From Dillenia suffruticosa (Eukaryota > Streptophyta > Magnoliopsida > Dilleniales > Dilleniaceae): a stretch of 64,000 nucleotides of DNA. Positions 14,757-25,185 of the stretch are shown here, in pieces. How positions within the stretch are numbered: the stretch's first letter is position 1; each line of letters starts with the position of its first letter. The notes beneath the pieces are model-generated. The model made no database searches and had not been told where the DNA came from. It worked only from the letters and a program-made list of their open reading frames with translations. Position numbers and translations under genes: made by a program. The DNA lies in NCBI GenBank assembly GCA_033439265.1, contig JAVTVX010000030.1:2606501-2670500 (forward strand), given 5' to 3'.

Positions 14757-15086
14757 TCAATCCCCCCTACAAGATGGAGTGTAAATGTCAACTATGCCCA
14801 TCTTGAGTAAACGTGAATGAAAAATAGAAAAAGCGAGATACTTAGTAAAGATATCTGCAAGTTGTCTTTGGGTTGGAACATGTGTTGTGTGAATGAGTCC
14901 AGCATGGAGAAGATCACGAACAAGATGACAATCTATTTCTATATACTTTGTGCGTGCATGAAAAACTAGATTGGCAGCAATGAAAAGTGCTAATTGATTG
15001 TCACAATAGAGGAGATGCTTGCAGGTGAGCAACCTGCAGATCATCAACAATAGAAACGATTGTTGAACTGGTGAGGACGGGTGCAT
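14757..15086 (-). pseudogene. Ty1/copia polyprotein 3' end (RNase H), broken
   Basis: The translated fragment contains [32 protein letters not shown] and [13 protein letters not shown], which are the RNase H tail motifs of copia pol (CDNQ, Hx[16 protein letters not shown]). Upstream of CDNQ the expected DDLQV-type sequence lies in another frame, so there is a frameshift. Integrase and reverse transcriptase are absent: the element is cut off at about 15.05 kb, where the tRNA repeat begins. It is therefore a truncated, non-autonomous relic that forms the left border of the tRNA array. Confidence 0.85.
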
Positions 15087-15177
15087 CGATTGGCATAAGG
15101 CAATGTGGGCTCATTAATTAAAATTCACAAATCACGAACAAGGAAAAAATAAAGAAACAAGAAATAAAGAATTATAC

Positions 15178-15249
15178 AGGACCCAACCTAGTTCGAACCG
15201 GTCACCTCTTGATATGCAATTAAATGCTTTACTACTTAGCTATGCACCA
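15178..15249 (-). pseudogene. tRNA-Cys-like element 1, decayed
   Basis: First unit of the array next to the copia relic. Anticodon GCA remains, but four of seven acceptor pairs and two T-stem pairs are lost. Confidence 0.8.
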
Positions 15250-15451
15250 AAGACATTTTTCTCTCTTGTCTCAATCTTCGTCATCTCAAGGCAATTGAAT
15301 TACAGAAAACACTAGAAACAATTGGCTATGGTTACTGGTGAGGACGAGAGATTTTATGGGTCATAGGAAAGGTGGGCCCATTAATTAAAATTCACAAATC
15401 ATGAAGAAGGAAAAAAGAAAGAAACAAAAAATAAAAAGTAAAAAACTCTAG

Positions 15452-15523
15452 AGGGCCCACCAAAGTTTGAAATGGTGACCACTTTATCTACAGTCAAATG
15501 CCCTACTACTAAGCTATGGACCC
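15452..15523 (-). pseudogene. tRNA-Cys-derived element 2 (type B), anticodon GTA, decayed
   Basis: The acceptor stem is intact, but the T-stem and D-stem are broken and the anticodon reads GTA instead of GCA. Confidence 0.8.
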
Positions 15524-15706
15524 TCGTCATTATTCTCTCTTCTCTTAATCTTCGTCATCTCAGTGCAGTCGAGTTATAGAAAACCCCAAAGATGATTGAT
15601 TATATTGACTGGTGAGGACGAGAGCTTGGCCTTAGGCAACGTGGACCCATTAATTAAAAATCACAAATCATGAACAAGGAGAAAAGAAAGAAACAAAAAA
15701 TTGTAG

Positions 15707-15778
15707 AGGGCCCAACCAGGTTCGAACCGGTGACCTCTTGATCTGTAGTCAAATGCTCTACCACTGAGCTATAGACCC
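15707..15778 (-). tRNA. tRNA-Cys-like (type C), anticodon ACA
   Basis: Folds as a full 72-nt cloverleaf with U73 and G-U wobbles, and keeps the A and B boxes (GGTTCGAACCTGG side intact). The anticodon is ACA rather than GCA, and an A34 tRNA-Cys would be unusual. A T6 run lies 5-10 nt downstream. Function uncertain. Confidence 0.65.
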
Positions 15779-15964
15779 TCAACATTTTCTCTCTTCTCTC
15801 CATCTTCATCATCTCGGGGTAGTCAAGTTACAGAAAATCATAGAAACAACTTATTATGTTGATTGGTGAGGACGAGAGCTTTGATTGGCCCTAGACAATG
15901 CGGACCCATTAATTAAAATTCACAAATCATGAACAAGTACAAAAGAAAGAAACCAAAAATTGAA

Positions 15965-16036
15965 GAGAGTCAACTGGGTTCAAACCGATGACTTCTTGAC
16001 CTGCAGTCAAATGCTTTACCACTGAGCCATGAACTC
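15965..16036 (-). pseudogene. tRNA-Cys-like element 4 (type D), decayed
   Basis: Anticodon GCA is kept, but the acceptor stem has at least two mispairs and the T-loop reads TTTGAAC. Confidence 0.7.
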
Positions 16037-16233
16037 TCGACATTTCTCTCTCTTCTCTCAATCTTCGTTGTCCCAGGGTAGTCATGCTATAGAAAACCCT
16101 AGAAACAATTGATTAACTGGTGAGGGCGGGAGCTTCGATTGGCATACGGCAATGTGAGCCCACTAATTAAAATTCACAAATCACAAACAAGGAAAAAAGA
16201 AAGAAACAAGAAATAAAAAACAAAGAATTGTAG

Positions 16234-16305
16234 AGGGCCCAACATGGTTCGAACCAAAGAACTCTTGATCTGCAATCAAATGCTCTACCACTAAGCTATG
16301 TACCC
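16234..16305 (-). pseudogene. tRNA-Cys-like element 5 (type A), decayed
   Basis: Anticodon GCA; the T-stem is largely unpaired and acceptor pair 5:68 is lost. Confidence 0.75.
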
Positions 16306-16507
16306 TAAACATTTTTCTCTCTTTTATCAATCTTCGTCATCTCAGGGAAGTCGAGCTACAAAAAACACTAGAAACAATTGGTTATGGTGACCGGTGAGGA
16401 CGAAAGTTTTTATGGGCCTTAGGAAAGCTAGGCCCATTAATTAAAATTCTCAAATCATAAATAAGGAAAAAAGAAAGAAACAAAAAATAAAAAGTAAAAA
16501 ACTTTAT

Positions 16508-16579
16508 AGGGCCCAACCGGGTTCGAACCGATGACCTCTTGATCTGCAGTCAAATGCTCTACCACTGAGCTATGGACCC
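16508..16579 (-). tRNA. trnC-GCA: tRNA-Cys (GCA), intact, type B
   Basis: Complete 72-nt cloverleaf: acceptor GGGTCCA with TGGGCCC, D-stem GCTC/GAGC, anticodon loop CTGCAGA, T-loop TTCGAAC, and U73. A-box TAGCTCAGTGG and B-box GGTTCGAACCC are canonical. TTTTTTACTTTTT lies about 10 nt downstream as a Pol III terminator. No CCA is encoded and there is no intron, as expected for plant nuclear tRNA-Cys. Only 65 bp separates it from the next element on the right because the spacer is shortened. Confidence 0.93.
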
Positions 16580-16644
16580 CCTACCCATTAATTAAAATTC
16601 ACAAATAATAAACAATAAGAAAAGAAAGAAACAAAGAATTGTAG

Positions 16645-16716
16645 AGGGCCCAACCGGGTTCAAACCGGTGACCTCTTTATCTATAGTTAAATGCTTTACC
16701 ACTGAGCTATGGACTC
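16645..16716 (-). pseudogene. tRNA-Cys-derived element 7 (type C), anticodon ATA
   Basis: Both anticodon positions 34 and 35 are changed (GCA to ATA). The anticodon stem, D-stem and acceptor stem each carry a mispair. Confidence 0.75.
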
Positions 16717-16917
16717 TCAACATTTTCTATCTTCTCTTGGTCATCATCATCTCAGGGTAGTAAAGTCACAAAAAACCATAGAAACAACTGATTATGGTGA
16801 TAGGTGAGGACAAGAGCATTGATTGGCCTTAGACAACGTGGGCCTATTAATTAAAATTCACAAATCACGAACAAGGAAAAAAGAAATAAATAAAAAACAA
16901 AAAACAAAAAATTGAAG

Positions 16918-23513: not shown

Positions 23514-23585
23514 AGAGGCCAACCGGGTTCGAACCGATGACTTCTTGACCTACAGTCAAATGATGTACCACTGAGTCATGGACCC
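23514..23585 (-). pseudogene. tRNA-Cys-derived element 33 (type D), anticodon GTA
   Basis: The T-arm is good and the anticodon reads GTA. The D-stem is broken. Confidence 0.7.
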
Positions 23586-23792
23586 TTGACATTTTTCTCT
23601 CTTCTCTCAATCTTCGTCGTCTCAGGGCACCAAGTTACAGAAAACTCTACAAACGACTGATTAACCGGTGAGGACGGGAGCTTTATTTTGGCCTAAGGGG
23701 ATGTGGGCCCATTAATTAAAATTCACAAATCACAAACAAGGAAAAAAGAAAGAAACAAGAAATAAAAACCAAAGAATTGTAGAGGGCCTAAC

Positions 23793-23818
23793 CTAGTTCT
23801 AACCAGAGACCTCTTGAA
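23793..23818 (-). pseudogene. tRNA-Cys fragment (T-arm half only)
   Basis: A deletion has removed the anticodon and 5' half together with the whole following spacer, joining this type A unit to the type B unit at 23839. This gives an 800-bp instead of about 1.06-kb higher-order repeat here, a direct trace of unequal recombination. Confidence 0.85.
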
Positions 23819-23838
23819 TAAAAAGTAAAAAACTCTAG

Positions 23839-23910
23839 AGTGTCCAACAAGGTTTGAACTAGTGACCTCTTGATTTGCAGTCAAATGTTCTACCACTGAG
23901 CTATGGACCC
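23839..23910 (-). tRNA. tRNA-Cys-like (GCA), type B, marginal
   Basis: One mispair in each of the acceptor, D and T stems; anticodon GCA and U73 kept. Confidence 0.5.
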
Positions 23911-24091
23911 TCAACATTATTCTCTCAATCTTTGTTATCTTAGTGTAGTAAAGTTACAGAAAACTCTAGAGACGATTGATTATGGTGACCGGTGAGGACG
24001 AGAGCTTTGAGTGGCCTTAGGCAACGTGGACCCATTAAATAAAATTAACAAATCCCGAACAAGGAGAAAAGAAAGAAACAAAAAATTGTAG

Positions 24092-24163
24092 AGGGTCCAA
24101 CCGGGTTCAAACTAATGACCTCTTGATCTGCAATCAAATGCTCTACCACTAAGCTATGGACCC
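24092..24163 (-). tRNA. tRNA-Cys (GCA), near intact, type C
   Basis: Perfect acceptor GGGTCCA/TGGACCC, D-stem with one G-U, anticodon GCA, T-stem with two wobbles and one mispair. A T6 run lies downstream. Confidence 0.65.
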
Positions 24164-24361
24164 TTAACATTTTCTCTCTTCTCTCGGCCTTCATCATCCC
24201 AGGATAGTCAAGTTACAGAAAACCCTAGAAACAATTGATTATGGTGATTGGTGAGGATGAGAGTTTTGATTGGCCTTAGACAATGTGGGCCTATTAATTA
24301 AAATTCATAAATCACGGGCAAGGAAAAAAGAAAGAAAAAAAATAAAAAACAAAAATTGTAA

Positions 24362-24428
24362 AGGGACAAACTAGGTTCGAACCGGTGTCCTTTTGATCTT
24401 AAATGCTTTATCACTGAGCAATGCACCC
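24362..24428 (-). pseudogene. tRNA-Cys-like element 37, anticodon deleted
   Basis: Five bases are missing across the anticodon, much as at 17459, though the two lie in different unit types. Confidence 0.85.
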
Positions 24429-24620
24429 TCGATATTCTTCTCTCTTTTCTCAATCTTCGTCGTCTCATGGTAGCTAAATTATAGAAGACCCTAAAAACGA
24501 TTGATAAACCGGTGAGGATGGGAGCTTCGATCAACCTAAGGCAATGTGAGTCCATTAATTAAAATTCACAAGAACAAGGAAAAAAGAAATAAAAAAAAAA
24601 TAAAAAACAAAGAATTGTAT

Positions 24621-24692
24621 AGGGCCAAACCTAGTTCAAACCGGTGACCTCTTGATCTGCAGTCAATTGCTCTCCCACTGAGCTATGCACCC
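24621..24692 (-). pseudogene. tRNA-Cys-like element 38 (type A')
   Basis: Anticodon GCA; substitutions in the acceptor, T-stem, anticodon stem end and D-loop. Confidence 0.6.
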
Positions 24693-24829
24693 TAGACATT
24701 TTTATCTCTTCTCTCAAACTTCGTTGTCTCAGGGCAATCAAGTTACAGAAAACACTAGAAACAATTTGGTTATCATTATTCTCTCCTCTCAATCTTCGCT
24801 GTCTCATGACAGATAGCCTCTTGATCTAG

Positions 24830-24901
24830 AAGGCCTAACCGGAGTCAAACCAGTGGCCTCTTGATCTACAATCAAATGCTCTACTACTAAGCTGTGGACC
24901 C
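24830..24901 (-). pseudogene. tRNA-Cys-derived element 39, anticodon GTA
   Basis: The B-box is destroyed (T-loop TTTGACT) and the anticodon reads GTA. The preceding spacer is partly deleted and holds a stray duplicate of the TCTTGATCTAGA segment. Confidence 0.7.
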
Positions 24902-25102
24902 TCAACATTATTCTCTCTTCTCTCAATCTTCACGGTCTCAGGACACTTATGTTACAAAAAACCTAAGAAACAATTGATTATGGTGGCCAATGAGGAGGAG
25001 AGCTTCCATTGGTGTTAGGCAATGCGAGCCCATTAATTAAAATTCACAAATCACGAGCAAGGAAAAAAGAAATAAACAAAATATAAAAAACCATAACTCT
25101 TG

Positions 25103-25174
25103 AGAACCCAATTGGATCGGAACCGATGACCTCTTGATCTGTGGTCAATTACCCTACCATTGAGCTACTTAGCT
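25103..25174 (-). pseudogene. tRNA-Cys-like element 40, terminal unit, decayed
   Basis: Right-hand end of the array. The acceptor 5' strand is lost, the B-box is altered and the anticodon reads ACA. Both end units are among the most decayed, as expected where unequal exchange rarely homogenises. Confidence 0.75.
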
Positions 25175-25185
25175 TCCTTCTCTTA

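Follow-up and report, generated by a model that had tools for sequence, protein, structure and literature searches.

The question raised by this locus is whether a tandem row of about 40 tRNA-Cys elements in the plant Dillenia suffruticosa is a set of working genes or the remains of one. The row lies in a stretch of 64,000 bp (the window; assembly GCA_033439265.1, contig JAVTVX010000030.1, here C30:2606501-2670500) of a genome assembled as 596 Mb in 37 contigs. We consider it likely that the window array is an old, methylated, probably silenced and now decaying relic of a tRNA-Cys array that was built as a higher-order repeat (HOR). A far larger tRNA-Cys array with an unrelated spacer is present on another contig of the same genome.

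The window array and its higher-order repeat

With one element as query and matches taken up to E 10, nhmmer returned 41 matches between positions 15179 and 25167, all on the minus strand, 39 of them longer than 50 bp; the best match besides the query itself had an E value of 9.2e-19. These are 39 near-full tRNA-Cys-derived elements lying head to tail, named U01 to U39 in order of increasing coordinate, together with one stub of 34 bp. A 22-bp match at 24808-24829 was not significant (E 8.4), and the one weak match off the array (41265-41290, E 0.18) fell within a tRNA-Val called by ARAGORN. The sum of 40 agrees with an earlier note on this DNA, which had described a plant sequence with 40 tRNA-Cys genes and pseudogenes, one per about 270 bp on the minus strand, and which was right on each of these points.

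Tandem Repeats Finder gave main rows in the array with a period of 259-274 bp, for a unit length of ~265 bp. ARAGORN made 20 calls, 17 as tRNA-Cys and three as tRNA-Tyr; the bodies of the latter are tRNA-Cys, with changed anticodons. The Rfam tRNA model reported 34 elements, 29 of them at or above the gathering score. Four ARAGORN tRNA-Cys calls at 15706-16580 satisfy the published definition of a plant tRNA cluster, at least three tRNA genes within 1 kb (PMC11700998; this and the other papers are cited from excerpts); the cluster counts in that source used a high-confidence filter, and ours are plain ARAGORN calls.

The order of the elements is absent from the earlier note. The array is a HOR, in which four sequence types follow one another in fixed order every ~1.07 kb. 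Clustering of the aligned whole units U02-U37 (36 units; the edge units U01, U38 and U39 were left out) gave four clusters of nine units each, with the chromosome order BCADBCADBBCADBCADBCADBCADBCADBCADCAD. We call B, C, A and D alpha, beta, gamma and delta, in plus-strand order. All 36 clustered units held to this order save at three places. Indeed, mean identity over all 39 units was 0.828 at a distance of four units and 0.827 at eight, against 0.783 between neighbours; in 5000 permutations of the order neither the lag-4 nor the lag-8 value was ever reached, and the lag-1 value was not raised. A maximum-likelihood tree of all 39 units recovered the same main groups, with strong support for 11 of 36 inner branches. 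The consensus of each type is called tRNA-Cys by ARAGORN, so that isotype and orientation are the same throughout. For the tRNA counts, U34 and U38 were taken as alpha, so that alpha had 11 members, beta and gamma nine each and delta eight, with U01 and U39 untyped.

Longer blocks appear in part of the array. In U17-U22, a stretch chosen after nearest neighbours had been inspected, each of the six units resembled the unit at a distance of eight more closely than the one at a distance of four, and over U11-U30 mean identity was 0.877 at eight apart and 0.854 at four apart; this suggests that eight-unit blocks were copied later. The order is broken at three places, by a step of 137 bp from U06 to U07, by the additional unit U10 and by the stub next to U34, all of which look like scars of deletion or recombination. 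The array probably arose by local duplication of a tRNA-Cys gene with its spacer until four diverged neighbours stood in a row, and the four-unit module (~1.07 kb) would then have been amplified in blocks of four, and partly of eight, presumably by unequal recombination, to about 40 elements.

Tandem arrays are error-prone in assembly, and a few real copies might have been multiplied in this way. Every window unit is distinct, however, and no pair exceeds 92.4% identity; duplication by the assembler is therefore very unlikely, and we give it almost no weight.

Decay of the window copies

The alpha and beta tRNA consensus are one identical sequence, which is also present exactly at other loci of the genome and serves here as the canonical tRNA-Cys. 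None of the 39 window copies equals it. All stems are paired in six of them (U03, U06, U11, U19, U20 and U28), and four (U06, U19, U20 and U28) combine paired stems with the GCA anticodon and an intact B-box start; these, at most, could still yield normal tRNA-Cys. The earlier note had listed promoter boxes, anticodons and terminators as features of the elements. The terminators largely stood, with a T-run of at least four within 20 bp downstream of 34 of the 39, but GCA is kept in just 24 and the B-box start (GGTTCRA) in 19.

C-to-T changes against the type consensus were enriched at CG and CHG cytosines. The spacers, counted on both strands, had 52/256 at CG, 39/203 at CHG and 124/1824 at CHH, and the tRNA bodies 27/149, 48/314 and 64/891; cytosines of unassignable context were excluded. 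Pooled, this gave 79/405, 87/517 and 188/2715, with Fisher P values against CHH of 5e-14 for CG and 1e-11 for CHG, which are optimistic since cells are not independent and the alpha alignment took in junction units. An unpolarised count over same-type array pairs gave 183/943 at CG, 155/995 at CHG and 545/6106 at CHH. As a control, four other duplications of the window were pooled; they had 3/18, 7/89 and 42/574 in the same contexts, with no CHG excess in this small sample. The enrichment is as expected of a methylated plant array, and Arabidopsis tRNA clusters, including the Ser-Tyr-Tyr cluster, carry methylation in the order mCG > mCHG > mCHH (PMC12308677). The observed/expected ratios of CG (0.57 in the array, 0.41-0.45 in the flanks) and CHG (0.74 and 0.96-1.05) were not used as evidence, because 39 related copies are not independent.

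The same pattern extended to the anticodon, which differs from GCA in 15 of the 39 elements: five read GTA, five ACA, one ATA and one GCG, and three have deletions. The 11 GTA, ACA and ATA cases amount to 12 substitutions, each a transition at one of the two central bases of CTGCAG, which are both CHG sites in the canonical context. Thus, 12 of the 13 anticodon substitutions are transitions at CHG cytosines of CTGCAG, and the remaining one is in the GCG copy. These transitions may well be due to deamination of methylated cytosine. The Cys anticodon lies within a symmetric CHG site, so methylation silencing itself would tend to turn GCA into the Tyr-type GTA or into ACA, and gene finders would report false tRNA-Tyr genes from deaminated Cys copies.

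An alternative is that the array is a conditional reserve, retained because certain tissues or states express some of its copies, as root tips do with the Arabidopsis Ser-Tyr-Tyr cluster (PMC12308677). The four structurally intact copies and the widely kept T-run would fit this, as would the beta tRNAs. In the constraint counts, which omit U01, U39 and four units at junctions or edges (U06, U31, U34 and U38), beta had 35/647 tRNA cells off consensus against 147/1218 in gamma and delta together (P 2e-6), with upstream spacers alike (61/765 and 130/1430). However, beta rates are uneven, since its distal spacer varied more than the gamma and delta ones did (81/683 against 101/1250, P 0.007), and by variable columns the difference between beta tRNA and spacer was not significant (22/72 against 77/195, P 0.2); constraint on the beta tRNAs is therefore a hint rather than a result. 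The corresponding columns were 35/72 against 89/196 in gamma, 35/72 against 68/195 in delta and 32/72 against 59/195 in alpha. In alpha, leaving out the junction units abolished any sign of constraint (66/497 in the tRNA, 59/595 upstream); an observed/expected value of 0.66 seen before came from junction units with misaligned spacers and was gone without U06, U31, U34 and U38. TATAAA, read on the plus strand, is also nearly absent from the array (one, with 60 elsewhere in the window; TTTATA, one and 37), and no window copy is canonical. We regard the reserve as rather unlikely.

Some of these results weigh against a decaying relic and have to be set beside those that favour it. The lower variation of the beta tRNAs would fit continuing function; a rise of divergence from the centre of the window array to its edges was not significant (rho 0.23, P 0.18, n=37); and the substitution spectrum, with its non-independent cells, its junction units and a small in-window control, is an indirect sign of methylation. 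The absence of canonical copies, the C-to-T excess at CG and CHG and the nature of the anticodon changes support the relic, and the largely silent state of the Cys cluster on Arabidopsis chromosome 5 (PMC10701932) supports a silent array. The window array would thus have become DNA-methylated and probably silent, its homogenisation would have ended, and decay would have proceeded largely via deamination of methylated cytosines, altering anticodons from GCA to GTA or ACA.

Two further observations concern the spacer. The array contains TGGGCC at 15 places and AAACCCTA at 11, and a promoter of RNA polymerase II type built from them was rejected, the most conserved spacer stretch being a different one, GAATTTTAATTAA. 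In each unit (15050-25180), GAATTTTAATTAA is followed by TGGGCCCA; the reverse complement of the conserved stretch, TTAATTAAAATTC, was counted 30 times within the array and is absent from the rest of the window.

A second array on contig C11 and other loci

A search of the same genome with the tRNA family was scored for 63 of 49,706 candidates and is a sample. It pointed to C11:12579001-12711647 (132,647 bp), a span of tRNA-Cys elements of which 154 were counted in the sampled part, all on the plus strand. The sampled part is 63,645 bp of that span (loci L009, L010 and L017-L024), 4,090 of them N; at the sampled density the C11 array would hold ~320 elements. Positions 1-4090 of L023, within the array, are the ones that read N. 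Exactly canonical copies number 24 of the 154, and 50 elements score above 55 bits.

The C11 elements are also ordered, in three types, with an identity of 0.940 at a distance of three units against 0.722 between neighbours. The HOR is ~1,160 bp long, 27 of 30 extracted copies measuring 1,159-1,161 bp, where copies outside L010 had been pre-filtered to 1,100-1,200 bp. Mean identity among the 30 copies was 95.9% and the minimum 86.4%. The copy number on C11 is less sure than in the window, which would leave an assembly artefact more room there: HOR copies are 98.9% identical within one 10-kb stretch (L010), and the N bases fall inside the array. HOR satellites are built of diverged monomers whose order is fixed, and they are amplified block by block, each block holding several monomers. 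Fixed order with blocks more alike than neighbours was found in both arrays; the high identity between HOR copies that marks active homogenisation was found on C11 and is lacking in the window, where the closest pair of units stays below the C11 mean, which again supports decay of the window array. The C11 array, larger and still homogeneous, would hence be younger or still turning over.

The types on C11 differ in their tRNAs. The 146 units with enough flank fell into 51 of type 2, 47 of type 1 and 46 of type 3, with two unplaced, in a five-cluster split; three clusters had failed to separate the types. The type 2 consensus is canonical. In the core of the array, type 2 had 14/2520 tRNA cells off consensus against 242/10471 in its own spacer, ~4-fold less, and a tRNA kept in one type of three would speak for a reserve. 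The tRNAs of the companion types are not less variable than their own spacers (type 3, 105/2448 against 200/10199; type 1, 65/2428 against 222/10196). Counted by variable columns, the difference in type 2 is weak (10/72 against 79/300, P 0.03; type 1, 21/72 against 73/300, P 0.45; type 3, 24/72 against 96/300, P 0.89). At the edges the cell counts were 60/1141 against 356/4610 for type 2, 93/842 against 256/3523 for type 3 and 62/927 against 197/3832 for type 1, and edge spacer transitions ran at 0.142 at CG, 0.114 at CHG and 0.053 at CHH. Unlike the window array, C11 genes have no near terminator; the first T-run of at least four is mostly 75 bp past type 2 (40/51).

A T-run directly after the tRNA is usual in plant tRNA genes, and a run of five stands there in 4 of 6 genes shown from C2, C8 and C1. 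These contigs carry small tRNA-Cys clusters: seven elements in 20 kb on C2 (L011 and L012; five called tRNA-Cys), four in 10 kb on C8 (L013; three called) and a single element on C1 (L014). Ten flanks were chosen (two each from C30, C11 and C8, three from C2 and one from C1) and compared by BLAST; C30 stood alone, C11 stood alone, and C2, C8 and C1 grouped together. The genome thus has two or more HOR arrays of tRNA-Cys whose spacers are unrelated, and a third spacer family is represented by small clusters; the C30 and C11 arrays were probably founded independently, to judge from their flanks. No viral contig had an exact match to the tRNA-Cys pattern. Other isotypes were seen in tandem as well: tRNA-Ile(TAT) at C1:4.296-4.360 Mb, with 11 ARAGORN calls at ~819-bp steps in the 10 kb of L015 (C1:4325000-4334999), and six tRNA-Ile calls, four TAT and two AAT, in the 10 kb of L016 (C13:16690000-16699999).

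The wider story would be a repeated, satellite-like amplification of tRNA-Cys in one genome. A bolder version, which we think less likely than not, is that this lineage has turned tRNA-Cys genes into HOR arrays again and again, with selection keeping one gene of each module functional and the others carried along as pseudogenes. The C11 array, with its canonical copies in the sampled half, would then be a selected tRNA-Cys dosage reserve, and the window array would be its older counterpart, dying under methylation with its anticodon rewritten by deamination at CTGCAG. Should the canonical C11 copies be expressed, a direct test would become possible of tRNA dosage as set by satellite copy number.

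Transposable elements offer another origin for the window units. A SINE has a tRNA-related head on an unrelated body and is dispersed by retroposition; the unit could be such an element, or a Helitron-like one, piled up in tandem. An open frame that abuts the array looks like a Copia-type retrotransposon RNase H remnant, with no Pfam family; BLAST of the two flanks found no remainder of it at the other end of the array. The Arabidopsis chromosome 5 cluster overlaps annotated Helitrons, and its authors speculate on such an origin and discuss one-ended transposition (PMC10701932). That cluster has at least one CTAG[TC] per unit, whereas the 39 window units have it 10 times on the plus and 16 times on the minus strand. 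The window tRNAs are also full length with the acceptor end, unlike a SINE head. Spacer copies elsewhere in the window are short A/T-rich matches only, and the spacer consensus had no nhmmer match at E 1e-3 in 18 sampled loci. Neither the Helitron nor the SINE reading is supported by the motif counts and spacer searches, and we judge a transposon origin improbable.

The neighbouring features are listed with the array in the table. Among 120 matches listed of 547, the best for the bestrophin-like exon was a Dillenia turbinata protein (91% identity over 97%), from which it differs by eleven substitutions and a gap. With the exon matching once in the genome, no duplicate of the locus for dating was found. 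The frame at 8456-9070 has AT-hook-like motifs in its translation and no Pfam family; it is a putative AHL gene. At 2945-3819 there is a 441-bp tandem duplication, 94% alike.

Table. Positions in the window of the array, of selected elements and of neighbouring features
Feature	Position	Strand	Remarks
Array U01-U39	15178..25174	-	~265-bp units, four-type HOR ~1.07 kb; nhmmer, ARAGORN, Rfam, clustering, lag permutation
U03	15707..15778	-	beta type; all stems paired; anticodon ACA
U06	16508..16579	-	alpha type; all stems paired, GCA, B-box start intact; 1 change from canonical consensus
U10	17459..17525	-	extra unit breaking four-type order; whole unit clusters with alpha, tRNA delta-like by eye
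U19	19868..19939	-	alpha type; all stems paired, GCA, B-box start intact; 3 changes
U20	20128..20199	-	beta type; all stems paired, GCA, B-box start intact; 1 change
U28	22224..22295	-	beta type; all stems paired, GCA, B-box start intact; 2 changes; top Rfam score of the window array, 70.1 bits
Truncated tRNA stub, 34 bp	23784..23817	-	beside U34, where a delta unit is expected; nhmmer E 0.058
U39	25103..25174	-	5'-most in transcription direction; most changed of 39 (19 changes)
Open frame abutting low end of array	14757..15110	-	translation; look of a Copia-type RNase H remnant; Pfam, no family
Bestrophin-like (VCCN1-like) exon	34930..35679	+	Pfam Bestrophin_2; single match in own genome
F-box and kelch frames	46324-47986		Pfam; some named matches are SKIP4

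Comparison with known tRNA clusters and satellites

The earlier note had inferred that a Cys array of this design is new. That did not survive, as tandem tRNA-Cys clusters are described in Arabidopsis (PMC10701932) and in the bryophyte Cpu, which has 58 identical tandem Ile-AAT and Cys-GCA genes in three clusters of 26, 18 and 14 (PMC12652284). Clusters range from 2 to 110 genes (PMC12652284); those listed for angiosperms are of Pro, Tyr-Ser and Ile, the longest with 28 Ile genes (PMC11700998), and clusters of fifty and more occur in Nematostella and teleost fishes (PMC2888827). These earlier Cys clusters lower the novelty, while the HOR and the C11 array add to it again. Among the literature titles and abstracts listed, none named a plant tRNA-Cys array with a HOR or a Dillenia tRNA array (supplements and most subscription papers lay outside this scope). 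What is unusual is the size of the array, its HOR order and the presence of the C11 array beside it.

The tRNA-Cys-GCA cluster on chromosome 5 of Arabidopsis thaliana resembles the window array in its head-to-tail genes from one variant, a 5' pseudogene in the direction of transcription, the decay of copies and its mostly silent state, which in the window array is probable. It differs in having 4-6 units of ~420 bp with 84-94% identity and, in the excerpts, no HOR, against 39 units of four types, most of them decayed, in the window (PMC10701932). The combination of a ~420-bp unit with CTAG[TC] in each is not found in the window array, with its period of 259-274 bp. Its genes (AT5G20852-AT5G20858, the AT5G2085x numbers) also differ from the window neighbourhood, flanked by a bestrophin whose matches are named after At3g61320, as far as a comparison by gene names only can tell (PMC10701932). 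The Arabidopsis Ser-Tyr-Tyr cluster is similar as a multi-gene module in tandem, with 27 units over almost 40 kb (PMC12308677, PMC10701932), and is methylated (PMC12308677), as the window array may be; its module mixes isotypes, whereas the four window positions are all tRNA-Cys-derived and mostly pseudogenes. The Cpu clusters share tandem tRNA-Cys genes with the window; unlike it, their genes are identical, 14-26 per cluster, and the excerpts describe no HOR with pseudogenes (PMC12652284).

The window array also resembles HOR satellite DNA, with diverged monomers in fixed order and the block as amplification unit. Unlike such a satellite, its monomer carries an RNA polymerase III gene, and the array is small and lies between protein genes. 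Genes of this kind are seldom thought of as satellite monomers, and two HOR arrays with unrelated spacers, in different states within one genome, offer a view of how tRNA arrays are born, homogenised, silenced and lost.

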